This document shows, piece by piece, positions 25,726 through 45,901 of a DNA stretch of 64,000 nt. Position numbers and translations under genes: made by a program. Source of the DNA: Telmatactis stephensoni (lineage: Eukaryota; Cnidaria; Anthozoa; Actiniaria; Isophelliidae); contig JALIZF010001620.1 in NCBI GenBank assembly GCA_029948255.1, positions 1 through 64,000 on the forward strand. Reading direction: 5' to 3'. Below the pieces are notes generated by a model. That model was not told where the DNA came from. It searched no databases and saw only the letters and a program-made list of their open reading frames with translations. How positions within the stretch are numbered: position 1 is the stretch's first letter; every line of letters starts with the position of its first letter.

Positions 25726-25775
25726 CTTTCTTCATAAAGTGGTGCATGATATTTGTTTTGTTTTGTTTTTCATAA

Positions 25776-26466
25776 GTGGTGCATAGATCTATGCACTTGA
25801 TATTTGACTTTTTTATATAGAGGTGCATAGATCTATGCACTTGATATTGGGCTTTTTTATATAGAGGTGCATAGATCTATGCACTTGATATTTGGCTATC
25901 CTCATATAGTGGTGCATAGATCTATGCACTTGATATTTGACTTTTTTCATATAGAGGTGCATAGATCTATGCACTTGATATTGGGCTTTTTTTATATAGA
26001 GGTGCATAGATCTATGCACTTGATATTGGGCTTTTTTATATAGAGGTGCATAGATCTATGCACTTGGTATTTGGGCTTTTTTATATAGAGGTGAATAGAT
26101 CTATGCACTTGATATTGGCCTTTTTTTTATATAGAGGTGCATAGATCTATGCACTTGATATTTGGCCTTTTTATATAGAGGTGCATAGATCTATGCACTT
26201 GATATTGGGCCTTTTTTATATAGAGGTGCATAGATCTATGCACTTGATATTGGCCTTTTTTATATAGAGGTGCATAGATCTATGCACTTGATATTTGGCC
26301 TTTTTTATATAGAGGTGCATAGATCTATGCACTTGATATTGGGCTTTTTTTAGATAGAGGTGCATAGATCTATGCACTTGATATTTGACTTTTTTCATAA
26401 ATGGTGCATAGATCTATGTACTTGATATTGGGCTTTTTTATATAGATGTGCATAGATCTATGCGCC
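25776..26466 (-). repeat. Palindrome array, right arm, unit 1
   Basis: About sixteen copies of the same 44-bp unit as in 23,296-23,735 but in reverse orientation (palindrome followed by TTGATATTGG and GCTTTTTTATATAGAGG). The two arrays are therefore inverted around about 2 kb of internal sequence. One copy has GTGAATAG in place of GTGCATAG. This array is the target of the Polinton-like insertion in unit 2. Confidence 0.95.
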
Positions 26467-26613
26467 AATTGGATCATTAGCACTGCAAAGATTTATGTAC
26501 TGTTGTTGTGTACAATATGTGCATTTCTTATAAAGTTGTTACATGCACTGCTGCTAATGTGTGATATTTTGTTATATAAATGTCTATTTCCTGCTGTATA
26601 TTCGAAAAAGAGA

Positions 26614-26624
26614 ATGCAAAATAA
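26614..26624 (+). terminator. Candidate poly(A) signal for the TPR transcript
   Basis: GCAAAATAAAGAAATATCC carries AATAAA about 0.9 kb after the exon 2 stop and just past the palindrome array. If used, the array would lie in the 3' UTR and be transcribed. Inference only. Confidence 0.3.
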
Positions 26625-27444
26625 AGAAATATCCAAAAAATGGCCTTATCAGTGTTTATGTGGATTTATCATCCTGCCATTTTAGCCCCATATTGCACCA
26701 ATTAATAAATTTGACTTGAATCAAAAAAATAAATTTGAAAACTGTTCATTTATTGACAAATAATCGATTTTGATCTTGTGAGAAATAACAATTTGCAAAG
26801 TTGGCATAGAATCAGACAAACTTGAAAAGTCATTACACTCTAGGTTTTTAGAGAAAATTGAAAAGTGCCAAAATTGGACATTTTTCATATAAAAAAGCAC
26901 AAAAAATGACCAAAACTGAACATTAAAAAAAAAAAACCCAATAGTGCAAAAGTGCAAAAATAGTTTTCAACTTGTTCTTACACAAGAATCTACAAGAATC
27001 ATTGACACTCCCCGATCACTAATTGACTTGATTGTTATTCATTTAAAGATTTGTGAAATGAATAAATTGGATGACAGGGAGAACCCACAGAGACAGCTCC
27101 AATAACGGGGTCCCAAAATACGAAAAAGAAAGGTCTAATGATAATTTAGAGAAAGTATAAAATATAATCCTACCGTATTAAGGACGTTCACGGGCATTGT
27201 CCACGTGCACTTTTACAGCGCTAGCGCACGCGCTACCTCAATAAATCCAAGAGGGCGGTCGACAATTTTTTTTTCGGTAATGGCTTTTTTCGAATTTTTT
27301 AAATGGAAATTATTTAAAAAGAAGAAGAAGAAAAAAAATTACAAAAATGAATTTTACCGAGAAAACAAATCGTCCATTTTGAAAAACCACAGAAAAAAGG
27401 ATGGAAAAGATTCTATTTAACCCAGTCTCCTCTACTTAACTGCT

Positions 27445-27749
27445 AGCTGGTGCAAGATATCAAGCGCCGTCAAGTTTCCACCAGCCATCGCAGTACTCAG
27501 CTGGTGCAAGATATCGAGCGCCGTCAAGTTCCCACCAATCATCGCAGTACTCAGCTGGCGCAAAATCTCAAGTGCCGTCAAGTACCCAACGGCAATTACA
27601 ACCCTCAGCTGGTCCAAGATCTCGAGATCAGAGCGGTAGATCTCTCAGTGGTCGTGAAAGTGGAAAATCCGGGGGCTCAAGTGGGATAGGTGGACAGGGA
27701 AAAGGAGGATCGAATGATGGGAACGGCGGCGATGACAACAACAGTGATG
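27445..27749 (+). pseudogene. Duplicated 3' part of TPR-gene exon 1 (unit 2)
   Basis: Copy of the minisatellite, Gly-rich tract and GTAGGT donor of the TPR gene, starting inside the minisatellite. The TPR domain and start codon are absent, so it cannot make the full protein alone. The frame is still open, and it could only serve as an alternative downstream exon of the intact gene. Three 54-bp units are present. Confidence 0.75.
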
Positions 27750-28617
27750 GTAGGTAAAATATTAATATCAAAGAAGTAGATAGGTATAATCTCGAGATAT
27801 ATATTAAAGATAGCGTATTGCAAAAGTTCTGACACATTTGACAATCTATAAATACTATTTATAATATATTAAAAGTGACAAATATATTATGCGAGAACTT
27901 CGCACTTTTGATTAAAAGCGGCTTAACAAGTTGAAAACTATTTTTGCACTTTTGCACTATTGGATTTTTTTTTAAATTGTTCAGTTTTGGTCATTTTTTG
28001 TGTTTTTTATATGAAAAATGTCCAATTTGGTGTTCACAACGAAATCCCTCAATTCTTCAAATTGAAACATGTCCTTGATTGAGACATTTTTCCTATTATT
28101 AACAGATGTTGGTACATGAAATTTGAACAAAAAGTGGACATTGTCATTTACATTGTAAAATGAATTTTTAAGATGTAGTTAAAATCAACACAAAAACAAT
28201 TTTCATCCAACAGCTCAAACTTTTTATTTCCAATTTTGGGCATGTGGTTGAAACCAAGGTTTACATATCAATTAGATGATCAATATCAGACACATGTGCA
28301 AGTTAACAAAGTGATAAATGTCACTAAATCAATCATTTTATTAAAACTTAAATCCCAGCAATGTTATTTTTGTAAAAAATGTCCATAATGGAACCAACTA
28401 TCACTTGCCCCAAGAGAAAATGCTTGTGATATTGATAATTGTACAAAAAGTGGAATATTATGTAGAAAATGCCTGAATTGACATCTTCAAGTCAATATAG
28501 GTTGAATTCATGGCATATATCTACGCTGTGACATATACAAAAAGTCGAAAACCATGTATGCACAACTAAAGTGGACAAAGTCAAGAATCAAGTGTATAGA
28601 GACCTATGTAAAACCAG

Positions 28618-29060
28618 ATATACGAAGTGCATAGATCTATGCATCATTATAAGGCCAATGCCAAACAAATCAAGTGCATAGATCTATATGCACCTCTATA
28701 TAAAAAAGCCCAAATTATATCAAGTGCATAGATCTATGCACCTCTATCTAAAAAAGCCCAATATCAAGTGCATAGATCTATGCACCTCTATATAAAAAAG
28801 GCCAATATCAAGTGCATAGATCTATGCACCTCTATATAAAAAAGGCCAAATATCAAGTGCATAGATCTATGCACCTCTATATAAAAAAGCCCAAATACCA
28901 AGTGCATAGATCTATGCACCTCTATATAAAAAAGCCCAATATCAAGTGCATAGATCTATGCACCACTTATGAAAAAAGTCAAATATCAAGTGCATAGATC
29001 TATGCACCTCTATATGAAAAAATTCAAATATCAAGTGCATAGATCTATGCACCACTATAT
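28618..29060 (+). repeat. Palindrome array, left arm, unit 2
   Basis: Copy of the array at 23,296-23,735. One unit carries an extra TA (GATCTATATGCACC), which breaks the 18-bp palindrome; the same change is in unit 3. Confidence 0.93.
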
Positions 29061-30805
29061 GGAAAAAGCCAAGTATCAGTAGTTTTGAAACTAGCATTCA
29101 ACCGGAGATCAATCAAATCACTTAATTGATGCAAATGGCGATTCCCGTTCTAAAACAGGAGAAAAGTACTTGATATGCACGACAAAAGTCTTAAATTTAA
29201 TTTAATACTTAGTTCCACAACCAAAGAATCGGCATTGGACATCTCTGAAGGTGATGAAGTACTATCCATATCAATTCTTGGACCACATCACTAAAACTAA
29301 AGTGTACATGTCCCTCCAAATCTGATGGCCGAGAAAAGGTAGACTGGCTTTCTTTATCTTCTGCAGCGGTATGAAACATCATTTTGCAAAAACGTCCTTC
29401 AAAACGAAGTTGGATTCCATGTTTTGATCTGTAAAAATTTTTTTCAATGTTAAAACAATATCAAGCCACCTTGCATGGACAAAAATTAATAGTGAGGAGG
29501 GCATTTAGCCTATAAAATTTGATCAAAATCGTATTTTTTTCGATCGTCCAAACTATAAACTTTGTAAAGGCTCAAAACGGCTCGTCAAAAATGCATTTGT
29601 TGGAATCATTGTGAGGTTTAAGTAATAATCTTATAACTTAAGTAAGCTTAACTGATGTAAGCTTAAGTTTTAACTTAAGTTAACTTCTTCGAGTGTGAAA
29701 TAAACTTGGAAAAAATCTGAGCCCTCGGCGACTTTCCGAGTGATTATAACTCCATTCATAAACATTGTGAGATAGTTTAAAAAACGAGAAAATATTAACT
29801 TTACCTTTTCAGTGTAAAAAACAAACTTATTGTATGTCAAAGTAGATATTTCCCAGAGTATTTCCCTTGCAAAGCGTGTGGTATGTATATATGCCTCCTT
29901 GTTTCTCCTAAACTTATGGATCCAAACTACGCGCGCGCGCGTTCATTTTTGGATTTTTCCCGCCCAAATTACACCACAGGAAGCCCAAATCGTAATTGTT
30001 GGAGAAAATGGGAATGTTTGATGAAAAGCAAAACTTCATTTTAATTCAGTCAAAATTCGAGTACCAGAGAGTACGAAACAAAGACAATCATGCAAGTGCA
30101 AAACGAGTGCAAACGTTTTCTAGAAATATTACGATCAACTTGACCAGGGCATTCTGTCAGCCATCGTCAGCCATCACAGAAAACGTGAATGAATATGTTT
30201 AGATGTTTGTTTTGCAAGTAAAAACGGAAAGTTACATGAAAGTTTTTACATCAGTCAATGAAACAACTACTGATTTCATCTTTGAAGACTTCTGGCAGCT
30301 TTTAAAGCAGAATCATTGAAAAATCACGTCTACTTACACCAGCGAATCGACCGGTAAAAAAGACATCAGGTGAGCAAAAAAGTCAAAACAACATGATTTT
30401 TCCTTATCATTGAAACTGCTATGAATACAACTTGTTACCTTTCCTTTTGAATCCTCTTTTTTCATAATTATTTTGATTTTTTTGAGCGTTCTCTTCCCTC
30501 TTTCCGTGAAGCTAAAAAGTAGTAAGTTAAGTCAGTTACACTATCACAACTTGGTGCAAGATCAACATTTTTGATAGACAAAAACTTTAACGTAAGCAAT
30601 CAATATGACTGTTAAGTCAATAGCAAATAAATGATTTTCAAGTTATTGAGAACCTCAATAAAGTATTATTGGAAAATTTAAAGAAAAGTTTTTGTCATTT
30701 CGTGGCATTTTGAACCTACTTTTGACCTGAAGGCTTGCATGATACGTTCGCCGGGCGAACGCACTCAGAGCAATGACTAAATAATCATTATTTTTACTTA
30801 CACAG

Positions 30806-31035
30806 ATGGAATATTTGAATTTTTCCAATATGAACTGGAATGGATGGTTGATCAGTGGTTAGCTAGCTTTAAAAGTCAGGAAGGGAATCTTCGCAACGAG
30901 CGACCCAAGAACTGCCGCAAACCACGTACCATAAAAATGTGCGATCCCGTACATTCAAGGATGGCGAAGAAGTCCAAGAAGAAGAAGAAGAAGAAAGTTT
31001 GGGATTTACATGAAATCTATACACTTAATATTTGA
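30806..31035 (+). pseudogene. Duplicated TPR-gene exon 2 (unit 2)
   Basis: Identical in layout to 25,496-25,725: acceptor TTTTACTTACACAG, open frame with poly-Lys run, TGA stop. Could be spliced as an alternative last exon but lacks its own complete gene. Confidence 0.7.
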
Positions 31036-31085
31036 CTTTCTTCATAAAGTGGTGCATGATATTTGTTTTGTTTTGTTTTTCATAA

Positions 31086-31446
31086 GTGGTGCATAGATCT
31101 ATGCACTTGATATTTGACTTTTTTATATAGAGGTGCATAGATCTATGCACTTGATATTGGGCTTTTTTATATAGAGGTGCATAGATCTATGCACTTGATA
31201 TTTGGCTATCCTCATATAGTGGTGCATAGATCTATGCACTTGATATTTGACTTTTTTCATATAGAGGTGCATAGATCTATGCACTTGATATTGGGCTTTT
31301 TTTAGATAGAGGTGCATAGATCTATGCACTTGATATTGGGCTTTTTTATATAGAGGTGCATAGATCTATGCACTTGGTATTTGGGCTTTTTTATATAGAG
31401 GTGAATAGATCTATGCACTTGATATTGGCCTTTTTTTATATAGAGG
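31086..31446 (-). repeat. Palindrome array, right arm, unit 2 (first part, before insertion)
   Basis: About eight 44-bp units, cut at TATAGAGG by the Polinton-like element. The array resumes at 39,119 with TAGAGGTGCATAG. Confidence 0.93.
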
Positions 31447-31660
31447 AGTAGTAGGAAAAGGAGAGTTCTAAGACCGAGGTACGAGGTACGCCCCCCCCCC
31501 CCCCCAACCCCCAGCCCGGTAGGGCTACCTCCCCTCTCTGGGGTATGGGGTACGACCCCTCCCCCTACTAGCCCGGTAGGGCTACCCCTTTCTGAGGTAT
31601 GATGAGGTACGACCCCTCCCCCTCGAGCCCGCTAGGGCTACCCCTCTCCCTTTCTGAGGT
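31447..31660 (+). repeat. Left terminal inverted repeat of the Polinton-like element, outer part
   Basis: Mirrors 38,900-39,118: the terminal 51 bp, a poly-C run, then repeated blocks AGCCCGGTAGGGCTACC and GAGGTATGATGAGGTACGACC. Inner sub-repeats vary in number between the two ends. The TIR resumes at 33,674 after the nested element. Confidence 0.85.
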
Positions 31661-31739
31661 ATATTATACGGTGGCTCCAAAGGGACATCCGAGATACGAC
31701 ACAAAAATGTACGAAATTATTGAAATCTTCGAGTTTTTT

Positions 31740-32252
31740 ACAAAATCTTCAAGATAAATCTTCGAGATAATAAATCTTCGAGTTACAAAATCTTCGAGAT
31801 AATAAATCTTCGAGTTACAAAATCTTCGAGATAGTAAATCTTCGAGATACTAAATCTTCGAGTTGCAAAATCTTCGAGATACAAAATCTTCGAGATACAA
31901 AATCTTCGAGATAAAAAATCTTCGAGTTACAAAATCTTCGAGATACAAAATCTTCGAGTTACAAAATCTTCGAGTTACAAAATCTTCGAGATAGTAAATC
32001 TTCGAGTTACAAAATCTTCGAGATACAAAATCTTCGAGATACAAAATCTTCGAGTTGCAAAATCTTCGCGATACAAAATCTTCGCGATACTAAATCTTCG
32101 CGATACTAAATCTTCGCGATACTAAATCTTCGCGATACTAAATCTTCGCGATACTAAATCTTCGCGATACTAAATCTTCGCGATACTAAATCTTCGCGAT
32201 ACTAAATCTTCGCGATACTAAATCTTCGCGATACTAAATCTTCGCGATACAT
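31740..32252 (+). repeat. 16-bp tandem array, left arm of fold-back
   Basis: Roughly thirty units of AAATCTTCGAGATAC(A/T). The last twelve or so carry GCGA in place of GAGA and are nearly identical, pointing to recent local expansion. Confidence 0.92.
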
Positions 32253-32295
32253 CGACTTGTCCGCGCGGCCCTGGGACACAATTCCTGGAGTCAAC

Positions 32296-32316
32296 ATGGC
32301 GGATGACGAGTGTGAG
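32296..32316 (+). other. Seven-codon start exon with splice donor, left arm of fold-back
   Basis: AACATGGCGGATGACGAG continues to TGTGAG, followed by GTGAGT, a strong donor. Read in frame: Met-Ala-Asp-Asp-Glu-Cys-Glu. The same block lies inverted at 32,810-32,830. It has the look of a captured host first exon with promoter-proximal sequence; this is inference. Confidence 0.45.
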
Positions 32317-32809
32317 GTGAGTCCGAGATTTTATGGCTTTTGAAGCCTTTCTCATAAATTATTGACGTATTTGCTTCTTTCTATAAGGTTGTTAAGTACT
32401 TAAGAGTGTTACCCCTTATAAACATTTTAAGGTTCCTCAACGTCCCGGGGGGGAGGGGGGAGGGGGGGAGGAGGGGGTTGTAAAAAATAATTCTCTCATC
32501 TGTTAAAAGGATACTAGTTCTTGTTGTAGTGTCCAAACAGTGTATATAATTGGGAAGCATCTCGGATAACTGCCAAACCCCAAGCCTTCAGATCTTGGGA
32601 GAAAATGCCGATCTATGCCTCACCGACGTCCCCGTTTGTTATTTTTTCCGGACTCGTCAAATTTTGTCGTTCTTTCGAAAAACAACTAGCATCAAATATT
32701 TAATTAATAGAGAAATTAAATGTTGAAATTAAAGAGATATAATTTTAAAAGATAAATACGTCAATAATTTATGAGAAAGGTTTCAAATGCCATAATATCT
32801 CGGACTCAC

Positions 32810-32830
32810 CTCACACTCGTCATCCGCCAT
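32810..32830 (-). other. Seven-codon start exon with splice donor, right arm of fold-back
   Basis: Minus-strand copy of 32,296-32,316 with the ATG at 32,830 and the GTGAGT donor just below 32,810. Both copies point toward the centre of the element. Flanking sequence (CATAAATTATTGACGTATT, CCTGGGACACAATT) is also shared. Confidence 0.45.
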
Positions 32831-32877
32831 GTTGACTCCAGGAATTGTGTCCCAGGGCCGCGCGGATAAGTCGATGT

Positions 32878-33608
32878 ATCTCGAAGATTTTGCAACTCGA
32901 AGATTTTTTATCTCGAAGATTTTGTATCTCGAAGATTTAGTATCTCGAAGATTTAGTATCTCGAAGATTTTGTAACTCGAAGATTTTGCAACTCGAAGAT
33001 TTTTTATCTCGAAGATTTAGTATCGCGAAGATTTAGTATCGCGAAGATTTAGTATCGCGAAGATTTAGTATCGCGAAGATTTAGTATCGCGAAGATTTAG
33101 TATCGCGAAGATTTAGTATCGCGAAGATTTAGTATCGCGAAGATTTTGTATCGCGAAGATTTTGTATCGCGAAGATTTTGTATCGCGAAGATTTTGCAAC
33201 TCGAAGATTTTGTATCTCGAAGATTTTGTATCTCGAAGATTTTGTAACTCGAAGATTTACTATCTCGAAGATTTTGTAACTGGAAGATTTATTATCTCGA
33301 AGATTTTGTAACTCGAAGATTTTGTATCTCGAAGATTTTGTATCTCGAAGATTTTGTAACTCGAAGATTTTGTAACTCGAAGATTTTGTATCTCGAAGAT
33401 TTTGTAACTCGAAGATTTTTTATCTCGAAGATTTTGTATCTCGAAGATTTTGTATCTCGAAGATTTTGCAACTCGAAGATTTAGTATCTCGAAGATTTAC
33501 TATCTCGAAGATTTTGTAACTCGAAGATTTATTATCTCGAAGATTTTGTAACTCGAAGATTTATTATCTCGAAGATTTATCTTGAAGATTTTGTAAAAAA
33601 CTCGAAGA
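32878..33608 (-). repeat. 16-bp tandem array, right arm of fold-back
   Basis: Over forty units of the reverse complement of the left-arm repeat (TCTCGAAGATTTTGTA types), with a central homogenised block of TATCGCGAAGATTTAG at about 33,022-33,190 and mixed variants outside. The order of variants partly mirrors the left arm; copy number is higher. Confidence 0.92.
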
Positions 33609-33673
33609 TTTCAATAATTTCGTACATTTTTGTGTCGTATCTCGGATGTCCCTTTGGAGCCACCGTAATATTA

Positions 33674-33758
33674 CGTCATATTGGAGTATCATGGGGTACG
33701 AGCGCAGCGAGTTTCCGGTACAATGATTACGGGGTCGATGACGTCATTGGTGGTGCAA
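33674..33758 (+). repeat. Left TIR of the Polinton-like element, inner part
   Basis: GGGGTACGAGCGCAGCGAG..GTTTCCGGTACA..GATTACGG..GTCGATGACGTCATTGGTGGTGCAA is the reverse complement, with changes, of 38,772-38,842. It shows that the fold-back at 31,667-33,667 lies inside the TIR. Confidence 0.85.
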
Positions 33759-33852
33759 CAAGTGGGATAAAACAGGATGGTTGAAAACCGAAAAACCAAA
33801 TCCTGGTGACCTCCGACAAGAAAGAGACTTACTCGAAGAAACATTAATAAAG

Positions 33853-34206
33853 ATGGACCCATTCAAGTTCATGAAAAAACAGTTCGTTTCCACCTATGCA
33901 GTAGAAGTGTGCAAACACCTGTACGAAATCAACATGAAAGACTGTTGTGGATGTCGTCTTCCAAACAGTAACGTACAGTGCTTATTGTTGACAGAAGACG
34001 AAAAGATCGAACTTCACTTTGAGCAGGCCCTCAGAAATGTAAATATACTGAAAGTGATAAACAGAGTGATGGACAATATGAGACCTTTCCAACTAACCAT
34101 TGAGGCAGAGGCCGAACTCTACAGCTGGACAGAGAGAAATCCAGCATTGTTACCGGAAACTTATCAAATGATTAAAGACACTGTGAAAGTGATACGAATG
34201 TATTAA
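33853..34206 (+). CDS. Small Cys-containing protein of the Polinton-like element (117 aa), function unknown
   Basis: The frame is open from 33,781, but the first ATG in frame (AAGATGGACCC) is at 33,853, giving 117 aa ending VIRMY. It lies 94 bp inside the left TIR. A Cys cluster near residues 31-46 (CCGCRLPNSNVQC) with a His about 15 residues later could bind zinc. The remainder is predicted mostly helical, with no signal peptide or membrane segment. AATAAA at 34,243 lies 37 nt past the stop. It converges on the ATPase gene. I do not recognise the family; a small structural, DNA-binding or regulatory protein is possible. The intact frame inside a bounded element supports it being real. Confidence 0.65.
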   Translation: MDPFKFMKKQFVSTYAVEVCKHLYEINMKDCCGCRLPNSNVQCLLLTEDEKIELHFEQALRNVNILKVINRVMDNMRPFQLTIEAEAELYSWTERNPALLPETYQMIKDTVKVIRMY

Positions 34207-34316
34207 AAACATTTGAAAAAGTGTAATATAACAACAAGACACCAATAAATGTTGGAAATATGATTTTATTTACTTTCTTTTTTTTAGTTACAATTAATAC
34301 ATGAGTTAAATACTAC

Positions 34317-35801
34317 TTAATATTTTTCCCAACCGGGTATGGACTGAATCATGGCTCTTATTCGTTGTGAGCGTCGTGGAGGTTGGAACACCTGTCCTCT
34401 ATACTTATGTTCATCTTGATAACGTATCCACCTGGGATCAGCTTGGGGTTTTTCTTTACTGGATGGAGGCGTGAGAGGAAACTCTACACTCGACAGAGTG
34501 ATGGGAGTGGAAGTAGAGGGTTGGTCTACTTTTAATGGAGTCGACGGTATCTCCTCTGTACCCCGTGGAACACTAGATTTAAAAGGTGTTCTGACTTTGG
34601 ATGTCAGGCGTTCTAGGAATGAGGGTGTTTTAGGTGTTGCCATACCAACGCCACTGTCACTGGTCACACTTGTAGGAGACACGTTTTTCGGAGTCGTCAC
34701 GTTAGCCGGGGGTTGACTATGGTCGACCAATGTTGATACGGTTGAAATGGGTTCCTGTCTCGGTATCGTTGGACCGGTATTGGAGAGTTGTTGTTGTAGA
34801 GCAAGGTAACGATTAAACAGTGGACCATATTCTTTGATTTTCACCTCTGGAGGTAGGGTGGGGTCTTTCAAAATGGCGTCCATCTGTTCTTCTAGTTCCT
34901 GCATGGCTTTCAGTTGGGGTGACTGTAAGTACCCTTGGCGCTCAAAAAAGTTAGCGATGGTCTTTACGTCATCTGTTTGACCTCCAGTCTGCGATGAGTG
35001 AGCATCATTTGGAAGAACGTTGGTACGCAGTCGACACCCCTCTGGGGTGTTGGGTTTGAGATCGACGAACAGGTAGCCGTAAGGCCGATGAACAGCGGCC
35101 TCGTACTTTTGAAGAAACTGGTCTGTTTTTCCGGGGTACATTTGTTTTCCCAACGTCATCATTTGTAGTTTGTCTCTGGGATTTTTAAAGAGGACGAGGT
35201 AGGCTGCATTGAGACTCAAGGTGCGCATGATTTTGCCTTGGAAATAGACATTTTGCAAGAGGAAGACGACACTGAGATTTCGGTGATGGGATCCCTTGGT
35301 AAATAAATTCAAGATACGTTTGTCGTTGGAGGTCTCGGTCATTTGATCGTCAATGACCATCAGATTGTTGATCTCGGGGTCAAAATACCAATCCTCATCC
35401 AGGCCATGGGGTATACCTTTGACAAACTCGATCCCAGGGACCGTTTTGAGCATCCGGTCGTAGGCCGGTTGCCATTGAGAGTAACTCCATACAATACGTT
35501 GAGGTGGAGGTTGGATGACTTGGTTGGCATGTTCCAGTAGGTTTTGAACCCAGACCGTTTTCCCAGAGCCGGTCATTCCAGCCACTAAGGCTGTGAATGG
35601 GTGGAGTAATTGAAACCGGTTACATTTGGTTTCCACTTGAGGTTTTGTCTGAGGGTAGGGAGTAAACCGCTGACCAACTTTTGTGCATTTTTCTTGACCT
35701 AGCCAATACTGTCGCTGTGAATTGTCCAGCTTATGAGTTCGACTCAAATGAGTGTGTAAATTTTGTTGCGGCTTGCCGCATATAGGACACATCCGCACCA
35801 T
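34317..35801 (-). CDS. FtsK/HerA-type (A32-like) genome-packaging ATPase of a Polinton-like element
   Basis: Length 494 aa from the ATG at 35,801; a second ATG three codons on is also possible, and upstream codons lack an ATG. Residues 5-23 form a C2H2-type finger (CPICGK...HTHLSRTH). Walker A GMTGSGKT is at about 75-82. A following YSQWQPAYDRM segment and Walker B NLMVIDDQM (about 136-144) match the viral packaging ATPase group. HHRNLSVVFLLQN (about 162-174) fits the sensor/arginine region of this fold, then YGYLFVDLKPNTPEGCRLRT. The C-terminal 200 residues are Pro/Ser/Thr-rich and likely disordered. Known members translocate viral DNA into capsids. The finger and tail are additions beyond the core ATPase. 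AATAAA on the minus strand lies at 34,264-34,269. The frame is intact. No capsid gene accompanies it, so its substrate or partner capsid would have to come from elsewhere (inference). Confidence 0.88.
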   Translation of the reverse strand: MVRMCPICGKPQQNLHTHLSRTHKLDNSQRQYWLGQEKCTKVGQRFTPYPQTKPQVETKCNRFQLLHPFTALVAGMTGSGKTVWVQNLLEHANQVIQPPPQRIVWSYSQWQPAYDRMLKTVPGIEFVKGIPHGLDEDWYFDPEINNLMVIDDQMTETSNDKRILNLFTKGSHHRNLSVVFLLQNVYFQGKIMRTLSLNAAYLVLFKNPRDKLQMMTLGKQMYPGKTDQFLQKYEAAVHRPYGYLFVDLKPNTPEGCRLRTNVLPNDAHSSQTGGQTDDVKTIANFFERQGYLQSPQLKAMQELEEQMDAILKDPTLPPEVKIKEYGPLFNRYLALQQQLSNTGPTIPRQEPISTVSTLVDHSQPPANVTTPKNVSPTSVTSDSGVGMATPKTPSFLERLTSKVRTPFKSSVPRGTEEIPSTPLKVDQPSTSTPITLSSVEFPLTPPSSKEKPQADPRWIRYQDEHKYRGQVFQPPRRSQRIRAMIQSIPGWEKY

Positions 35802-35880
35802 TCCGCGTCTTGTACTGAATGAAACCAATTTTAGAAGTATGTGTTATTTATGGTCTATATGGATTGTTATTTTCTACATT

Positions 35881-36600
35881 AGATAAAATCTATTAGATTC
35901 TACATTAGATTAGATTCGATTCGATTCTACATTAGATTAGATTAGATTAGATCTATTAGATTAGATTAGATTAGATTAGATCTATACTAAATTAGATTCT
36001 ACATTAGATTAGATTAGATCTATTAGATTCTAATTAGATTAGATTCTACATTAGATTAGATTAGATTAGATCTATTAAATTCTACATTAGATTAGATTAG
36101 ATCTATTAGATTCTAATTAGATTAGATTCTACATTAGATTAGATTAGATCTATTAGATTCTAATTAGATTAGATTCTACATTAGATTAGATTAGATCTAT
36201 TAAATTCTACATTAGATTAGATTAGATTAGATCTATTAGATTCTAATTAGATTAGATTCTACATTAGATTAGATTAGATTAGATCTATTAGATTCTAATT
36301 AGATTAGATTCTACATTAGATTAGATTAGATCTATTAGATTCTAATTAGTTTAGATTCTACATTAGATTAGATTAGATTAGATTCTACATTAGATTAGAT
36401 TAGATCTATTAGATTCTAATTAGATTAGATTCTACATTAGATTAGATTAGATTAGATCTATTAGATTCTAATTAGATTAGATTCTACATTAGATTAGATT
36501 AGATTAGATTCTACATTAGATTAGATTAGATTAGATTAGATTAAATTCTACATTAGATTCTAGTATTCTAGCTAGATTCTAGTATTCTAGTCTAGATTAT
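35881..36600. repeat. TTAGA-based satellite between divergent Polinton genes
   Basis: About 700 bp made of TTAGA pentamers arranged in a higher-order unit of about 48 bp (TCTATTAGATTCTAATTAGA, then ...TTCTACATTAGATTAGATTAGA). It fills the gap between the minus-strand ATPase and the plus-strand pX-like gene, where a bidirectional promoter would be expected. It resembles but is not the TTAGGG telomere repeat. Confidence 0.93.
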
Positions 36601-36667
36601 CATAATAGATAAATTATAGTGTTTTCCCCTCATTATTTCATTTGGAGCAAACGTCCGTACAGACAAC

Positions 36668-36994
36668 ATGAGTCGTTTGATCCGTGACCATTTTGGGTAT
36701 TTGTATCACTTAACCAATTGTCCTCCTCATCAGAGAACGCTTTTACTGGCCACCGCTAGTCCAGAACAGGTTCATGCCATTTGTGAAGTTTGCTCGAATT
36801 TATCCAAAGGCACTATACCAGTGTCACAAGTGCAAAAAGAAAGACTGAGAAAGCATGTGGATGACATACGGAAATTGGCCGACCCATCCGTTCCTTTCAA
36901 AATCAAGAAACAAACTCTAGCGCAACGGGGTGGTGGTTTTGTGTCCGATATCATGTCACCCCTGGTGTCGGCTCTGAAGTTGTTTTTGTTTTAA
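36668..36994 (+). CDS. pX-like small basic protein of the Polinton-like element (108 aa)
   Basis: Starts at ATG in GACAACATGAGTCG and reads 108 aa to TAA. An N-terminal helical part with a motif around HAICEVCSNLSKGTIPVS is followed by a basic segment (KIKKQTLAQRGGGF). The C-terminus is short and hydrophobic (SPLVSALKLFLF). From memory, proteins of this shape, ending 'K/R-rich, LxQRGGGF, hydrophobic tail', recur in Polinton/adintovirus-like elements and have been compared with adenovirus pX/Mu or membrane-active virion proteins. I could not verify this by search. The next gene starts 57 bp downstream on the same strand, so the two may be co-expressed. Confidence 0.7.
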   Translation: MSRLIRDHFGYLYHLTNCPPHQRTLLLATASPEQVHAICEVCSNLSKGTIPVSQVQKERLRKHVDDIRKLADPSVPFKIKKQTLAQRGGGFVSDIMSPLVSALKLFLF

Positions 36995-37051
36995 ATATTC
37001 CTGTCCATAAAGAAGAAGCTCATTTCGACGTTGATCATTTGAGGAAGCAAC

Positions 37052-37867
37052 ATGAAAAGAGCACGGAGCGAGTCCACTGATTCTGAAGACAGTATTGCTT
37101 CTTACACCGAAGAGGCCACTTTTGACGATGACGATATTGAAAAGGTTTTGCAGAAACTCTCCCAGAGTAACCCCGAAGAAAAGACGCTCGCATTTCTTCA
37201 TACCCTGTCAGCTTCGAAAAGTATTTTATACTGGAACTCCCATGGGGAGATGATGTATCATGAGCGAAGAATTCCTGTCACCAGCATTGCAGAGCTCATT
37301 GAGTATGTCATGTTACCTTACAATTTGGATGTTAAAGTACCTCGTGGGTTGAAAACGTTCACTCAAGGATTATCAGAGATTGGTATTGACAAGAAACTGA
37401 TCCGTAACAAAAGGGTTCTGGCAGATTTGGTTGCCAGGCAACCGGAAGAGGACGAGACAGATAGCGAAACTAGTGACCAAACCTCTGAAAGAGAAACTTC
37501 AGAGTCGGACAGTGAGAGTGTTAGTGAAAGCTTAGAGTCACAGGAGCATTCAGAACCGGAAAGTTCAGAATCAGACGATGAACCCCTAGAGTGTCACGTC
37601 TGCCGTGACTTCAAATCGTTCTATTCCATACCTGTAGTGCAATGCCCCAGATGTCTGTGGCGCGAAGGTTACTATTGTCGTGACGACCAACTGGTTGAAT
37701 GCGATATTTGCTCACACGTCTTTGCCGTAGATGATCATACCACGAAAGTCAAGTTTTGTCGTTGTCGAGACTGTGATGCAGTCCATCAATTGTCGTTGAA
37801 ATCCAAGAAATTAAAACTCATGGATGATCATGATGACAATCAAGAAGAATCCGAAAGCGAATTGTAA
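37052..37867 (+). CDS. Acidic Cys-rich protein of the Polinton-like element (271 aa)
   Basis: ATG in GCAACATGAAAAG; 271 aa to TAA, with AATAAA at 37,881. The N-terminus (1-40) is acidic. Residues about 55-125 hold a block reading ILYWNSHGEMMYHERRIPVT, then IAELIEYVMLPYNL and FTQGLSEIGIDKKLIRNKR. I associate this pattern with a domain found in invertebrate Maverick-associated proteins (recollection, unverified). Residues 130-178 are a Ser/Glu/Asp tract. Residues about 180-250 have five Cys pairs (CHVC, CPRC, YYC, CDIC, CRCRDC) consistent with zinc-ribbon or RING-like folding. The C-terminus is acidic again. The role is unknown; a nucleic-acid-binding or packaging accessory is plausible. Confidence 0.72.
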   Translation: MKRARSESTDSEDSIASYTEEATFDDDDIEKVLQKLSQSNPEEKTLAFLHTLSASKSILYWNSHGEMMYHERRIPVTSIAELIEYVMLPYNLDVKVPRGLKTFTQGLSEIGIDKKLIRNKRVLADLVARQPEEDETDSETSDQTSERETSESDSESVSESLESQEHSEPESSESDDEPLECHVCRDFKSFYSIPVVQCPRCLWREGYYCRDDQLVECDICSHVFAVDDHTTKVKFCRCRDCDAVHQLSLKSKKLKLMDDHDDNQEESESEL

Positions 37868-38088
37868 CATCCCGAACGTGAATAAAAGGACTTTTCAATG
37901 AATCAGTTTGGTTTGTCTGACTACCTTTCAAGATCTGAATTTACATGTGTTGAAACCGTTCAGAGTGATTTATTTATGTCTTTATGATCTCATGTATAAA
38001 CTGTTCTCCCACTGACTTTACGAGTCACAAACCCAAAGGCGATCGTACGGAAAGGTTAAAACTGAGTGGGTAAAGAACTGAAATAATC

Positions 38089-38288
38089 ATGGGTGATGTT
38101 AGGATCAACTTTTCATGCAAGTCACCTCAACCTGACTGGTTCAAAGAACTCACACATTTAAAGTGGGACCGCAAAACGGGGTTTCGTCAGGTCGTGGACA
38201 GTTCGGTGGTGTACCCTTAAAAGAGCAAATGCGTCGAAGGAAATTGACGGGACTACAGCAACAACAAGAAGAAATCAACAAAATTTAA
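38089..38288 (+). pseudogene. Possible small basic ORF with a frameshift, Polinton-like element
   Basis: An ATG at 38,089 opens 43 codons (WFKELTHLKWDRKTGFRQV..) ending at 38,220. In the third frame a run rich in Gly, Arg and Gln (SGRGQFGGVPLKEQMRRRKL) continues to TAA at 38,288. The two parts overlap as if one frame had shifted. A small core-type protein is conceivable. Low confidence; it may be chance. Confidence 0.3.
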
Positions 38289-38771
38289 TCATGTATACCT
38301 CTTGAGATAGAATTGTGTAAACAATGAACGAGCCTTAAGTAAACAAATGAGGCAGAACGTTTGGTGAAATTTGCATAAGATCTAGACATAAAACTTGTCA
38401 CATAACAAACTAGTGACTCAAAATAAAGTGTCAACGATATGAGATCCTGACACTCATGTCTTTTAAATCTATAATTTTGAACCCTTGGAATGAGTTGAAT
38501 AAATGACTCTGGAACTTCCAATTCTAGTTTCTAATTCTTGTACAAACTTTAAACACGAGTTTAAAACAATAGATTTGCAGGTGACCGTTTCTAAAACAAT
38601 AGCCGTCACGCACATAGGTTTAGAAAATCTAAAACTTTGATTCTTTGTGGCCACTTTTGCTACTTCTTTAATTGGATACCATTTAAGAATTAGAAGAAAA
38701 AATTAATAGGATCCCATTTACGAATTAGGAGGATTCAAAAGAGGGAAATTTGCTTGCCCGGCTGGTGATTA
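38289..38771. other. Non-coding right interior of the Polinton-like element
   Basis: No gene recognised between the last ORF and the right TIR. Frames on the minus strand are short and without features. A short near-repeat (TTTAAGAATTAGAAG / TTTACGAATTAGGAG) occurs at about 38,680-38,735. Confidence 0.45.
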
Positions 38772-39118
38772 TTGCACCACCAATAACGTCATCGACTCCG
38801 TAATCGCTGTACCGGAAACTCGCTGCGCTTGTACCCCATTCATACCCCGTTGTACCACCCTCGTACCCCATCATACCTCAGAAAGGGGTAGCCCTACCGG
38901 GCTCGAGGGGGATGGGTCGTACCTCATCATACCTCAGAAAGGGGTAGCCCTACCGGGCTAGTAGGGGGAGGGGTAGCCCTACCGGGCTCGAGGGATCGTC
39001 ATACCTCATACCCCGGAGAGGGAGGTACCGCCCAGTCGGGCTTGGGGTTGGGGTTGGGGGGGGGGGGGGGGGGGCGTACCTCGTACCTCGGTCTTAGAAC
39101 TCTCCTTTTCCTACTACT
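38772..39118 (-). repeat. Right terminal inverted repeat of the Polinton-like element
   Basis: 347 bp: TTGCACCACCAATAACGTCA inside, then GTACCCC/CATACCCC sub-repeats, several AGCCCTACCGGGCT blocks, a 16-nt G run and the terminal CTCTCCTTTTCCTACTACT. It is uninterrupted, unlike the left copy. Confidence 0.88.
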
Positions 39119-39496
39119 TAGAGGTGCATAGATCTATGCACTTGATATTTGGCCTTTTTATATAGAGGTGCATAGATCTATGCACTTGATATTGGGCCTT
39201 TTTTATATAGAGGTGCATAGATCTATGCACTTGATATTGGCCTTTTTTATATAGAGGTGCATAGATCTATGCACTTGATATTGGGCTTTTTTATATAGAG
39301 GTGCATAGATCTATGCACTTGATATTTGGCCTTTTTTATATAGAGGTGCATAGATCTATGCACTTGATATTGGGCTTTTTTTAGATAGAGGTGCATAGAT
39401 CTATGCACTTGATATTTGACTTTTTTCATAAGTGGTGCATAGATCTATGTACTTGATATTGGGCTTTTTTATATAGATGTGCATAGATCTATGCGC
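39119..39496 (-). repeat. Palindrome array, right arm, unit 2 (second part, after insertion)
   Basis: Resumes with the duplicated TAGAGG and eight or nine 44-bp units, ending in the degenerate unit GCATAGATCTATGCGCCAATT seen at the end of the array in every tandem unit. Confidence 0.93.
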
Positions 39497-40474
39497 CAAT
39501 TGGATCATTAGCACTGCAAAGATTTATGTACTGTTGTTGTGTACAATATGTGCATTTCTTATAAAGTTGTTACATGCACTGCTGCTAATGTGTGATATTT
39601 TGTTATATAAATGTCTATTTCCTGCTGTATATTCGAAAAAGAGAATGCAAAATAAAGAAATATCCAAAAAATGGCCTTATCAGTGTTTATGTGGATTTAT
39701 CATCCTGCCATTTTAGCCCCATATTGCACCAATTAATAAATTTGACTTGAATCAAAAAAATAAATTTGAAAACTGTTCATTTATTGACAAATAATCGATT
39801 TTGATCTTGTGAGAAATAACAATTTGCAAAGTTGGCATAGAATCAGACAAACTTGAAAAGTCATTACACTCTAGGTTTTTAGAGAAAATTGAAAAGTGCC
39901 AAAATTGGACATTTTTCATATAAAAAAGCACAAAAAATGACCAAAACTGAACATTTAAAAAAAAAACCCAATAGTGCAAAAGTGCAAAAATAGTTTTCAA
40001 CTTGTTCTTACACAAGAATCTACAAGAATCATTGACACTCCCCGATCACTAATTGACTTGATTGTTATTCATTTAAAGATTTGTGAAATGAATAAATTGG
40101 ATGACAGGGAGAACCCACAGAGACAGCTCCAATAACGGGGTCCCAAAATACGAAAAAGAAAGGTCTAATGATAATTTAGAGAAAGTATAAAATATAATCC
40201 TACCGTATTAAGGACGTTCACGGGCATTGTCCACGTGCACTTTTACAGCGCTAGCGCACGCGCTACCTCAATAAATCCAAGAGGGCGGTCGACAATTTTT
40301 TTTTCGGTAATGGCTTTTTTCGAATTTTTTAAATGGAAATTATTTAAAAAGAAGAAGAAGAAAAAAAATTACAAAAATGAATTTTACCGAGAAAACAAAT
40401 CGTCCATTTTGAAAAACCACAGAAAAAAGGATGGAAAAGATTCTATTTAACCCAGTCTCCTCTACTTAACTGCT

Positions 40475-40887
40475 AGCTGGTGCAAGATATCAAGCGCCGT
40501 CAAGTTCCCACCAATCATCGCAGTACTCAGCTGGTGCAAGATATCAAGCGCCGTCAAGTTCCCACCAGCCATCGCAGTACTCAGCTGGTGCAAGATATCA
40601 AGCGCCGTCAAGTTTCCACCAGCCATCGCAGTACTCAGCTGGTGCAAGATATCGAGCGCCGTCAAGTTCCCACCAATCATCGCAGTACTCAGCTGGCGCA
40701 AAATCTCAAGTGCCGTCAAGTACCCAACGGCAATTACAACCCTCAGCTGGTCCAAGATCTCGAGATCAGAGCGGTAGATCTCTCAGTGGTCGTGAAAGTG
40801 GAAAATCCGGGGGCTCAAGTGGGATAGGTGGACAGGGAAAAGGAGGATCGAATGATGGGAACGGCGGCGATGACAACAACAGTGATG
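40475..40887 (+). pseudogene. Duplicated 3' part of TPR-gene exon 1 (unit 3), minisatellite expanded
   Basis: As in unit 2 but with five 54-bp units instead of three; open frame, GTAGGT donor, no TPR domain. Confidence 0.75.
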
Positions 40888-41762: not shown

Positions 41763-42290
41763 AAGTGCATAGATCTATGCATCATTATAAGGCCAATGCC
41801 AAACAAATCAAGTGCATAGATCTATATGCACCTCTATATAAAAAAGCCCAAATTATATCAAGTGCATAGATCTATGCACCTCTATCTAAAAAAGCCCAAT
41901 ATCAAGTGCATAGATCTATGCACCTCTATATAAAAAAGGCCAATATCAAGTGCATAGATCTATGCACCTCTATATAAAAAAGGCCAAATATCAAGTGCAT
42001 AGATCTATGCACCTCTATATAAAAAAGCCCAAATACCAAGTGCATAGATCTATGCACCTCTATATAAAAAAGCCCAATATCAAGTGCATAGATCTATGCA
42101 CCACTTATGAAAAAAGTCAAATATCAAGTGCATAGATCTATGCACCACTATATGAAAAAATTCAAATATCAAGTGCATAGATCTATGCACCACTTATGAA
42201 AAAAGTCAAATATCAAGTGCATAGATCTATGCACCACTATATGAAAAAATTCAAATATCAAGTGCATAGATCTATGCACCACTATATGGA
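41763..42290 (+). repeat. Palindrome array, left arm, unit 3
   Basis: About twelve units, two more than unit 1: the pair of units with CACTTATGAAAAAAGTC and CACTATATGAAAAAATTC is duplicated. Confidence 0.93.
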
Positions 42291-44054
42291 AAAAGCCAAG
42301 TATCAGTAGTTTTGAAACTAGCATTCAACCGGAGATCAATCAAATCACTTAATTGATGCAAATGGCGATTCCCGTTCTAAAACAGGAGAAAAGTACTTGA
42401 TATGCACGACAAAAGTCTTAAATTTAATTTAATACTTAGTTCCACAACCAAAGAATCGGCATTGGACATCTCTGAAGGTGATGAAGTACTATCCATATCA
42501 ATTCTTGGACCACATCACTAAAACTAAAGTGTACATGTCCCTCCAAATCTGATGGCCGAGAAAAGGTAGACTGGCTTTCTTTATCTTCTGCAGCGGTATG
42601 AAACATCATTTTGCAAAAACGTCCTTCAAAACGAAGTTGGATTCCATGTTTTGATCTGTAAAAATTTTTTTCAATGTTAAAACAATATCAAGCCACCTTG
42701 CATGGACAAAAATTAATAGTGAGGAGGGCATTTAGCCTATAAAATTTGATCAAAATCGTATTTTTTTCGATCGTCCAAACTATAAACTTTGTAAAGGCTC
42801 AAAACGGCTCGTCAAAAATGCATTTGTTGGAATCATTGTGAGGTTTAAGTAATAATCTTATAACTTAAGTAAGCTTAACTGATGTAAGCTTAAGTTTTAA
42901 CTTAAGTTAACTTCTTCGAGTGTGAAATAAACTTGGAAAAAATCTGAGCCCTCGGCGACTTTCCGAGTGATTATAACTCCATTCATAAACATTGTGAGAT
43001 AGTTTAAAAAACGAGAAAATATTAACTTTACCTTTTCAGTGTAAAAAACAAACTTATTGTATGTCAAAGTAGATATTTCCCAGAGTATTTCCCTTGCAAA
43101 GCGTGTGGTATGTATGCCTCCTTGTTTCTCCTAAACTATCCAAACTACGCGCGCGCGCGTTCATTTTTGGATTTTTCCCGCCCAAATTACACCACAGGAA
43201 GCCCAAATCGTAATTGTTGGAGAAAATGGGAATGTTTGGTGAAAAGCAAAACTTCATTTTAATTCAGTCAAAATTCGAGTACCAGAGAGTACGAAACAAA
43301 GACAATCATGCAAGTGCAAAACGAGTGCAAACGTTTTCTAGAAATATTACGATCAACTTGACCCTTTCAGCAAAACGGTGCATCATGGGTAATCAGGGCA
43401 TTCTGTCAGCCATCGTCAGCCATCACAGAAAACGTGAATGAATATGTTTAGATGTTTGTTTTGCAAGTAAAAACGGAAAGTTACATGAAAGTTTTTACAT
43501 CAGTCAATGAAACAACTACTGATTTCATCTTTGAAGACTTCTGGCAGCTTTTAAAGCAGAATCATTGAAAAATCACGTCTACTTACACCAGCGAATCGAC
43601 CGGTAAAAAAGACATCAGGTGAGCAAAAAAGTCAAAACAACATGATTTTTCCTTATCATTGAAACTGCTATGAATACAACTTGTTACCTTTCCTTTTGAA
43701 TCCTCTTTTTTCATAATTATTTTGATTTTTTTGAGCGTTCTCTTCCCTCTTTCCGTGAAGCTAAAAAGTAGTAAGTTAAGTCAGTTACACTATCACAACT
43801 TGGTGCAAGATCAACATTTTTGATAGACAAAAACTTTAACGTAAGCAATCAATATGACTGTTAAGTCAATAGCAAATAAATGATTTTCAAGTTATTGAGA
43901 ACCTCAATAAAGTATTATTGGAAAATTTAAAGAAAAGTTTTTGTCATTTCGTGGCATTTTGAACCTACTTTTGACCTGAAGGCTTGCATGATACGTTCGC
44001 CGGGCGAACGCACTCAGAGCAATGACTAAATAATCATTATTTTTACTTACACAG

Positions 44055-44284
44055 ATGGAATATTTGAATTTTTCCAATATGAACTGGAATGGATGGTTGA
44101 TCAGTGGTTAGCTAGCTTTAAAAGTCAGGAAGGGAATCTTCGCAACGAGCGACCCAAGAACTGCCGCAAACCACGTACCATAAAAATGTGCGATCCCGTA
44201 CATTCAAGGATGGCGAAGAAGTCCAAGAAGAAGAAGAAGAAGAAAGTTTGGGATTTACATGAAATCTATACACTTAATATTTGA
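44055..44284 (+). pseudogene. Duplicated TPR-gene exon 2 (unit 3)
   Basis: Same acceptor, frame, poly-Lys run and TGA as 25,496-25,725. Confidence 0.7.
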
Positions 44285-44335
44285 CTTTCTTCATAAAGTG
44301 GTGCATGATATTTGTTTTGTTTTGTTTTTCATAAG

Positions 44336-44934
44336 TGGTGCATAGATCTATGCACTTGATATTTGACTTTTTTCATATAGAGGTGCATAGATCTATGCAC
44401 TTGATATTGGGCTTTTTTTATATAGAGGTGCATAGATCTATGCACTTGATATTGGGCTTTTTATATAGAGGTGCATAGATCTATGCACTTGGTATTTGGG
44501 CTTTTTTATATAGAGGTGAATAGATCTATGCACTTGATATTGGCCTTTTTTTATATAGAGGTGCATAGATCTATGCACTTGATATTTGGCCTTTTTATAT
44601 AGAGGTGCATAGATCTATGCACTTGATATTGGGCCTTTTTTATATAGAGGTGCATAGATCTATGCACTTGATATTGGCCTTTTTTATATAGAGGTGCATA
44701 GATCTATGCACTTGATATTGGGCTTTTTTATATAGAGGTGCATAGATCTATGCACTTGATATTTGGCCTTTTTTATATAGAGGTGCATAGATCTATGCAC
44801 TTGATATTGGGCTTTTTTTAGATAGAGGTGCATAGATCTATGCACTTGATATTTGACTTTTTTCATAAGTGGTGCATAGATCTATGTACTTGATATTGGG
44901 CTTTTTTATATAGATGTGCATAGATCTATGCGCC
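44336..44934 (-). repeat. Palindrome array, right arm, unit 3
   Basis: About fourteen units. It includes the uninterrupted equivalent of the Polinton insertion site: TATATAGAGGTGCATAG with a single TAGAGG at 44,556-44,561. Confidence 0.93.
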
Positions 44935-45901
44935 AATTGGATCATTAGCACTGCAAAGATTTATGTACTGTTGTTGTGTACAATATGTGCATTTCTTATA
45001 AAGTTGTTACATGCACTGCTGCTAATGTGTGATATTTTGTTATATAAATGTCTATTTCCTGCTGTATATTCGAAAAAGAGAATGCAAAATAAAGAAATAT
45101 CCAAAAAATGGCCTTATCAGTGTTTATGTGGATTTATCATCCTGCCATTTTAGCCCCATATTGCACCAATTAATAAATTTGACTTGAATCAAAAAAATAA
45201 ATTTGAAAACTGTTCATTTATTGACAAATAATCGATTTTGATCTTGTGAGAAATAACAATTTGCAAAGTTGGCATAGAATCAGACAAACTTGAAAAGTCA
45301 TTATACTCTAGGTTTTTAGAGAAAATTGAAAAGTGCCAAAATTGGACATTTTTCATATAAAAAAGCACAAAAAATGACCAAAACTGAACATTTAAAAAAA
45401 AAACCCCAATAGTGCAAAAGTGCAAAAATAGTTTTCAACTTGTTCTTACACAAGAATCTACAAGAATCATTGACACTCCCCGATCACTAATTGACTTGAT
45501 TGTTATTCATTTAAAGATTTGTGAAATGAATAAATTGGATGACAGGGAGAACCCACAGAGACAGCTCCAATAACGGGGTCCCAAAATACGAAAAAGAAAG
45601 GTCTAATGATAATTTAGAGAAAGTATAAAATCCAATCCTACCGTATTAAGGACGTTCACGGGCATTGTCCACGCGCACTTTTACAGCGCTAGCGCACGCG
45701 CTACCTCAATAAATCCAAGAGGGCGGTCGACAATTTTTTTTTCGGTAATGACTTTTTTCGAATTTTTTAAATGGAAATTATTTAAAAAGAAGAAGAAGAA
45801 GAAAAATTAAAAAAAGGAATTTTACCGAGAAAACAAATCGTTCATTTTGAAAAACCACAGAAAAAAGGATGGAAAAGATTCTATTTAACTCAGTCTCCTC
45901 T

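Follow-up and report, generated by a model that had tools for sequence, protein, structure and literature searches.

Polintons, also called Mavericks or polintoviruses, are thought to stand at the root of many eukaryotic DNA viruses, and their replication and virions have mostly been inferred. According to the accessible portions of two papers, known representatives measure 15–20 kb and hold polymerase, integrase, ATPase, and protease in one element (PMC4028283), and vertebrate Mavericks are reported to have (AGT)2//(ACT)2 or (AG)3//(CT)3 ends (PMC8097293). The available part of a third paper describes adintoviruses with PolB, integrase, and adenovirus-like virion genes in one genome, genomes with adenovirus-class virion genes in which PolB and integrase are not recognizable, and bidnaviruses, which carry an adintovirus-class PolB and of which some are segmented; a divided integrating Polinton is not described in that part (PMC11071296). 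The literature searched, which covered few subscription papers, gave no report of satellite or non-autonomous Polintons and, among the titles listed, none that fitted segmented, multipartite, or palindromic Polintons. Here, we analyze a Polinton-like element at positions 31447–39118 of a 64,000-nucleotide stretch of the sea anemone Telmatactis stephensoni (contig JALIZF010001620.1, positions 1 to 64,000, forward strand; hereafter the window), which carries a packaging-type ATPase and has its ends in common with a separate element that carries a PolB-type gene. We give an even chance to the reading that it represents the trans-replicated class of a divided, modular Polinton-like system.

A real inserted element at this position is confirmed. 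Its outer limits, 31447 and 39118, are set by exact terminal inverted repeats (TIRs) of 59 bp (AGTAGTAGG.../...CCTACTACT; 31447–31505 on the plus strand and 39060–39118 on the minus strand) with AGTAGT/ACTACT ends, and it is flanked by the target-site duplication (TSD) TAGAGG on the left (31441–31446) and on the right (39119–39124). TIRs with a 6-bp TSD and ends of the (AGT)2//(ACT)2 type are features of Polintons/Mavericks. Beyond the exact repeats extends a longer, imperfect TIR of ~350 bp: its right copy lies at 38769–39118 (minus strand), whereas the left copy consists of an outer part with G+C-rich 56/57-bp repeats (31447–31662, plus strand, defined by alignment to the right end) and an inner part displaced by a nested insertion (33683–33762, plus strand, matching about 38769–38848). 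The latter insertion is a foldback element of 2001 bp outside the Polinton proper (31667–33667, TSD ATATTA), composed of two inverted arrays of a 16-bp tandem repeat with ends TACGGTGGCTCC and an exact TIR of at least 60 bp, and devoid of a long frame; it splits the long left TIR of its host element, the inner part of which resumes at 33683. This 16-bp palindromic DNA was rejected as a Polinton component because it has a TIR and a TSD of its own. The 7672 bp between the outer limits consequently include the 2001-bp insertion and its 6-bp duplication, and of the 7.7-kb element proposed by an earlier, sequence-only reading of the window the limits hold, but the Polinton-type part amounts to about 5.7 kb.

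Since a minisatellite of 44–45-bp units around the element also contains the word TAGAGG, the TSD at this locus alone is weak evidence. The surrounding host DNA (22086–45901) consists of a unit of roughly 5.3 kb in tandem triplication, with the 44–45-bp minisatellite and a 54-bp repeat. The element interrupts the second unit (27445–40463), and the first (about 22.1–27.4 kb) and third (about 40.5–45.9 kb) are empty, which suggests that it probably inserted after the triplication. The empty-site alignments pair 22115–26137 with 27445–31446 (98.8%), 26086–27626 with 39119–40656 (97.8%), 28619–31446 with 41854–44694 (96.3%), and 39119–40463 with 44556–45901 (99.2%). An origin of the TSD as a chance product of the minisatellite was rejected on account of these two paralogous empty sites and of 11 other TSD-bearing pairs in the genome. 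The exact TIRs, the TAGAGG duplication, and the AG/CT ends noted by the sequence-only reading thus all stand.

The list of open reading frames (ORFs) shows that the four frames of the element are real. The longest encodes an A32/FtsK-type packaging ATPase of 503 aa, as is typical of Polintons/Mavericks, with an N-terminal C2H2-like finger (34317–35828, minus strand; ATG of MVRMCPIC at about 35801). In Pfam it reaches 22.4 bits for Pox_A32, just below the cut-off of 22.8, and its relatives P0016 and P0007 reach 28.8 and 27.4 bits. At E ≤ 0.001 it has 401 relatives; the 120 listed include ten under the name Actinostola and three under Oculina. An alignment of 28 sequences has the P-loop region in common, whereas the finger, which was identified by eye in the window ATPase and is matched by PF00096 in some relatives, is absent from several. 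ORF1 comprises 141 aa from a TTG, with an internal ATG at about 33853 (33781–34206, plus strand). On the other side of an A+T-rich central repeat region with units of 47–52 bp (35892–36562), near which the arm junctions vary among copies, follow a pX-like small protein of 108 aa (36668–36994, plus strand) and ORF4 (37052–37867, plus strand; 271 aa, acidic, with C-terminal Cys pairs), which is the acidic Cys-rich protein recognized earlier. Neither ORF1 nor the pX-like protein nor ORF4 has a family match in Pfam or PHROGs. Of the identities given to the four open frames by the sequence-only reading, Pfam therefore lends near-support to the ATPase alone, and the pX label lacks a match in either database. 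ORF4 has 26 database relatives, the named ones all from sea anemones (Actinostola, 4; Exaiptasia, 1), and scans of IMG/VR with the ATPase, ORF1, and pX as queries gave no confirmed relative. In predicted structures the ATPase has a mean predicted local distance difference test score (pLDDT) of 63, and ORF4 of 49, which is not usable. The claimed lack of polymerase, integrase, and capsid genes agrees with the finding of no PolB match inside the element and, for the four frames searched against Pfam, of no rve integrase and no capsid or adenain protease match; the genome itself was not queried for capsid or protease. Beyond ORF4, at 38074–38288, two short overlapping frames in different phases (MGDVRINF... 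and ...GGVPLKEQMRRRKLTGLQQQQEEINKI) may be both ends of a gene that has lost its interior.

The genome search (483.5 Mb in 1,782 contigs; counts may include both haplotypes) located 27 copies of the exact 33-bp end, corresponding to a lone end and 13 facing pairs, which range from 4,100 to 9,663 bp. Perfect 6-bp TSDs flank 12 of the 13 pairs, the exception being L027. Because L021 and L033 share their TSD and their flanks (400/400 and 397/400 bases identical), they were counted as one insertion; together with L028, which has one degenerate end and the TSD TACGAC, at least 12 distinct TSD-bearing insertions result, and many independent insertions of a short form are what a satellite or trans-mobilized element should leave. 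We read the gene content of 14 copies, namely the window element, the remaining 12 pairs, and the lone end: All four genes are detectable in seven (the window element, L022, L023, L024, L026, L029, and L031); of these, L024 has a frameshifted ATPase, L029 a frameshifted ORF1, and L026 both an ORF1 frameshift and a stop in its ORF4 match. Both L021 and L033 hold the ATPase, frameshifted in L033, and ORF1; L025 holds a partial ATPase and pX and ORF4 twice each; L028 holds pX and ORF4; and L027, L030, and L032 hold none of the four. The idea that all related copies carry PolB was rejected, as none was found in the window-class copies read. L026 (G000:C290) is a mosaic, in which ORF1 and ORF4 ends that are nearly identical enclose the ATPase and pX of a lineage whose synonymous divergence is saturated; it also contains a 1,318-aa frame that, from its motifs, we take to be a Gypsy-type retrotransposon.

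PolB and ATPase lie apart in the elements examined, with ends in common, as would be required of a divided genome; segments for integrase and capsid were not located in what was read. The ATPase has at least 85 matches in the genome (85 of 680 candidates scored) that are 76–100% identical; 71 of the 85 are free of stops, 14 contain stops, and a few are partial. Two PolB searches gave 68 and 47 match rows, and 44 of 255 PolB candidates were scored. In the distance comparison, which used 52 of the 68 PolB rows (the other 16 being neighboring pieces on the same contigs), the shortest distance between the start of a scored ATPase and that of a scored PolB is 19.7 kb, and no scored ATPase lies less than 19 kb from a scored PolB. 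The 16-bp end AGTAGTAGGAAAAGGA occurs 162 times in the genome, as opposed to 0 times for its reversed control, and 100 of these ends, as listed, form 39 facing pairs under 25 kb. Among the latter, 22 have a scored ATPase, two have PolB (C232 and C369), none has both, and 15 have neither, although the gene-content reading places an ATPase in C228 and C290, which are among these 15. At least for PolB, this speaks against the possibility that all related copies are carriers of PolB and integrase, which had been named as fatal to the satellite proposal.

The element C369 (G000:C369:320058-333357; L064, L065) is a palindrome of 13,300 bp with the TSD GCCCCA. A C2H2 frame accompanies a PolB-type frame of 1036 aa in each arm, and over the 4,686 bp read the arms have 99.87% identity. 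Its right end is homologous to all 14 window-class copies (75–93%), as would be expected of cis-acting ends that a satellite has in common with its helper, and its terminal 744 bp are 82–86% like the A arm (see below) of the five window-class copies shown; over its inner 10 kb, BLASTN gives no match to the window class longer than 60 bp. In the parts of C369 read, inspection of the frames by eye (≥110 aa or ≥60 aa, depending on the part) revealed neither an ATPase nor an integrase, the Pfam scan covering the PolB and C2H2 frames. PolB rows converge as inverted pairs on five of 35 contigs (C369, C232, C327, C1311, and C1733), of which C369 is the one read. Two longer facing pairs carry an ATPase: C249 (G000:C249:446185-462814; 16,630 bp, TSD AACGTC), whose right end recurs, together with its flank, 3.2 kb further on, and C258 (G000:C258:99681-116143; 16,463 bp, TSD TGCATT).

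The PolB identity of this gene is likely, judged from motifs and context. In Actinostola, the ATPase gene model P0016 (one of eight read out of ten named) is joined to a protein with the motifs KLMNNSVFGK and DTDS, and on the strength of these motifs we take that protein to be PolB-type; hhalign pairs them with KLMLNSLYGK and DTDS of phi29 DNA polymerase. Among the 8,000 candidates scored for this part of P0016, 7,995 are relatives, and an endonuclease VII domain exceeds the cut-off in three of the eight relatives scanned. The label is further supported by the IMG/VR contig L066 (17.4 kb), in which a PolB-type relative of 40% identity stands beside an rve integrase (13286–14206, minus strand), an A32 ATPase, and a weak, sub-cut-off capsid match (3244–4674, plus strand).

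When compared with native stretches of L029 and L032, the window-class copies look as if they were built from interchangeable arms, some with both ends alike. Three arms can be distinguished, which join near the A+T-rich center: A with ORF4 and pX, B with the ATPase and ORF1, and C with a frame of 132–133 aa that appears C2H2-like by eye. The combination A-B occurs in seven copies, C-B in L021 and L033, A-C in L028, and C-C in L027, L030, and L032, and L025 consists of A, a partial B, and then a second A. The end gene varies as well: Among 30 ATPase loci examined with 1.5-kb flanks (six of them copies described above), ORF1 is present at 88–99% in 12, interrupted in two of these (L039 and L043), only 37% similar in three, and missing in 15. 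In L048, L053, L054, and L061, where ORF1 is missing or 37% similar, its position is taken by a frame different from it, Cys-rich and about 270 aa long. L045–L058 and L060 form an ATPase subfamily that lacks ORF1, and its inspected members L048, L053, and L054 have this ~270-aa Cys-rich frame (ORF5) and a variant TIR. The arms of the palindromes are 99.7% (L027), 99.8% (L030), 100% (L032), and 99.96% (L025) identical over 1,377 to 2,258 bp, and L025, L030, and L032 are bounded by TSDs. In other copies, C arms are 80–93% like that of L032, and non-coding A-arm DNA is 91.5–95.4% like that of L029. Because arms within a palindrome are near-identical and those of other copies more diverged, formation in linear DNA shortly before insertion would be the simplest account of these sequences, with gene conversion after insertion as the rival source of arm identity.

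Between the window ATPase and that of L026, the rate of non-synonymous substitution (dN) is 0.219 and that of synonymous substitution (dS) 2.84, which is near saturation, giving a dN/dS of 0.077; purifying selection on the ATPase between lineages is thus supported by sequence comparison across a deep divergence, and the neutral decay that would have spoken against a satellite is not seen at this level. The dN/dS comparison proposed by the sequence-only reading also covers six recent copies, in which the ratio is 0.10–0.59 in 14 of 15 pairs, with few changes and one pair free of synonymous change. The frameshifted or partial ATPases of L024, L025, and L033 and ORF1 of L026, L029, and L033 were left out of these calculations; the pX set comprised the window element, L022, L024, L029, and L026, and for L026 ORF4 the open part was used. 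ORF1 is identical in the six copies compared and pX in four, and the frame of the C arm has a dN/dS of 0.21 between L032 and L030. Relative to L029, 591 bp of non-coding A-arm DNA show 10–24 mismatches and 18–28 gap positions, as opposed to 1–4 mismatches in the 816 positions of ORF4, 0–1 in the 327 of pX, and 2–13 in the 1,512 of complete, unshifted ATPases, which corresponds to mismatch rates of 1.7–4.1% in the non-coding stretch versus 0–0.9% in coding DNA.

In the divided system that we consider, the window class would contribute a packaging-type ATPase together with the pX-like protein, the acidic ORF4 protein, and either ORF1 or ORF5 as its exchangeable end gene, and a second class of about 13 kb with the same TIR would contribute the PolB-type polymerase. 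The PolB of the other class could replicate, in trans, the linear DNA of any two-ended element, excised or copied; this DNA may be packaged, and an integrase supplied in trans would insert it, thereby making the 6-bp target duplications. Ends may be exchanged near the central repeat during linear replication, and strand switching would yield palindromes in which one end is present twice and which would be inserted likewise. A bolder version, which we hold tentatively and consider rather unlikely, is that of a multipartite Polinton-like virus integrated in the germline of an animal, with TIR-sharing segments for the polymerase, for packaging and virion-accessory proteins, and for C2H2-like regulators, in which arm exchange would amount to reassortment and palindromes would record protein-primed linear replication.

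The sequence-only reading had favored a trans-mobilized satellite, and much of it stands: Short units transpose, their ATPase is under selection, and a same-ended PolB-type element exists. A divided genome fits these facts equally, and as no ATPase was seen in the parts of C369 read, mutual dependence is as fitting as parasitism. In its classical form, the satellite explanation requires a complete same-ended Polinton, possibly C249 or C258, that supplies polymerase, integrase, and capsid to elements of 5.6 kb living as parasites with an ATPase and accessory genes. The TSD-bounded, ATPase-bearing pairs of about 16.5 kb are in its favor, as is the one-piece relative L066, in which PolB, A32 ATPase, and rve integrase occur together with a weak capsid-like match, but among the candidates scored no PolB was found in C249 or C258, and we regard this explanation as possible, if on the unlikely side. 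Overall, a divided system with common ends fits what was read slightly better. Several points weigh against such a system. C249 and C258 may be complete Polintons, the other 10 kb of which could hold PolB, integrase, and capsid, or else nested transposons as in L026, and a one-piece copy may have escaped the scoring, which covered 85 of 680 candidates for the ATPase and 44 of 255 for PolB, or the list of ends (100 of 162). C369 is the sole PolB element read, in all but its left outer 1.5 kb; C232 (14,186 bp) has one flank that is that of C369 in reverse and another that differs, and its second PolB arm is decayed (86%, 12 stops), so that it is not an independent, intact insertion. The PolB-type protein has no sequence match to a polymerase in Pfam, NCBIfam, or PDB, and the hhalign comparison with phi29 polymerase has an E of 0.014 and a probability of 3% (reversed control, E 0.3). 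P0016, one of the eight Actinostola ATPase models read, is an ATPase fused to the same PolB, although fusion of another, P0024, with DUF1759 suggests that such Actinostola fusions may be gene-prediction noise. Finally, few changes underlie the dN/dS values of recent copies, and mismatches are absent from two short intergenic spacers (57 and about 101 bp), which are as conserved as the genes.

Alternatively, the elements might have arisen as ordinary deletion derivatives of a Polinton that was once complete and have spread by chance, with the ATPase open merely because the copies are young. The coding DNA of recent copies differs by 0–1%, frameshifts affect the ATPase of L024 and L033 and ORF1 of L026 and L029, 14 of 85 ATPases contain stops, and the remnant frames at 38074–38288 could be what is left of a deleted gene. 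This is difficult to reconcile with no fewer than 12 distinct insertions that bear TSDs, L028 included, with subfamilies of 76–98% ATPase identity whose frames are mostly open, with the dN/dS of 0.077 over a deep divergence, and with a longest non-coding stretch that has changed more than the genes; long-divergence selection in elements in which no PolB was read appears to have already weakened this explanation, and we deem it improbable. We think still less of the suggestion that palindromes and arm combinations are assembly artefacts, or products of gene conversion between inverted arms, and do not reflect linear replication. Inverted-read artefacts are a known phenomenon, and the assembly may hold both haplotypes, as the common flanks of L021 and L033 and the one common flank of C232 and C369 indicate. 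However, the palindromes L025, L030, L032, and C369 are bounded by perfect 6-bp TSDs, past which the flanks (six bases each) are unlike, which argues against an artefact, as this would carry on; and in L025 the B end is replaced by an A end, which is beyond what conversion alone gives.

Compared with described systems, parts of the divided, modular organization have precedents in the virion genomes that lack PolB and integrase and in the segmented bidnaviruses, as far as the accessible part of the source goes, although bidnaviruses differ by their parvovirus-type NS1 and capsid genes (PMC11071296). Polintons/Mavericks are alike in the 6-bp TSD, the AGTAGT//ACTACT ends, the long TIRs, and the A32/FtsK-type ATPase, but the known ones, in the available portions of the sources, hold PolB, integrase, protease, and ATPase together (PMC4028283, PMC8097293), whereas ATPase and PolB are apart among the elements examined here. 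The IMG/VR contigs L066 and L067 carry the same PolB family at 38–40% identity, L066 also with an A32-type ATPase and an rve integrase; unlike the anemone elements, it unites PolB, ATPase, and integrase on one 17.4-kb contig. With polymerase and packaging genes in separate, common-ended elements, complementation in trans becomes testable by sequence alone. Palindromic defective forms are known for linear protein-primed genomes such as that of adenovirus. The palindromes described here resemble them in having two head-to-head copies of one end and differ from them in being inserted into the genome with TSDs. They may constitute a fossil record of a linear-genome replication mode.

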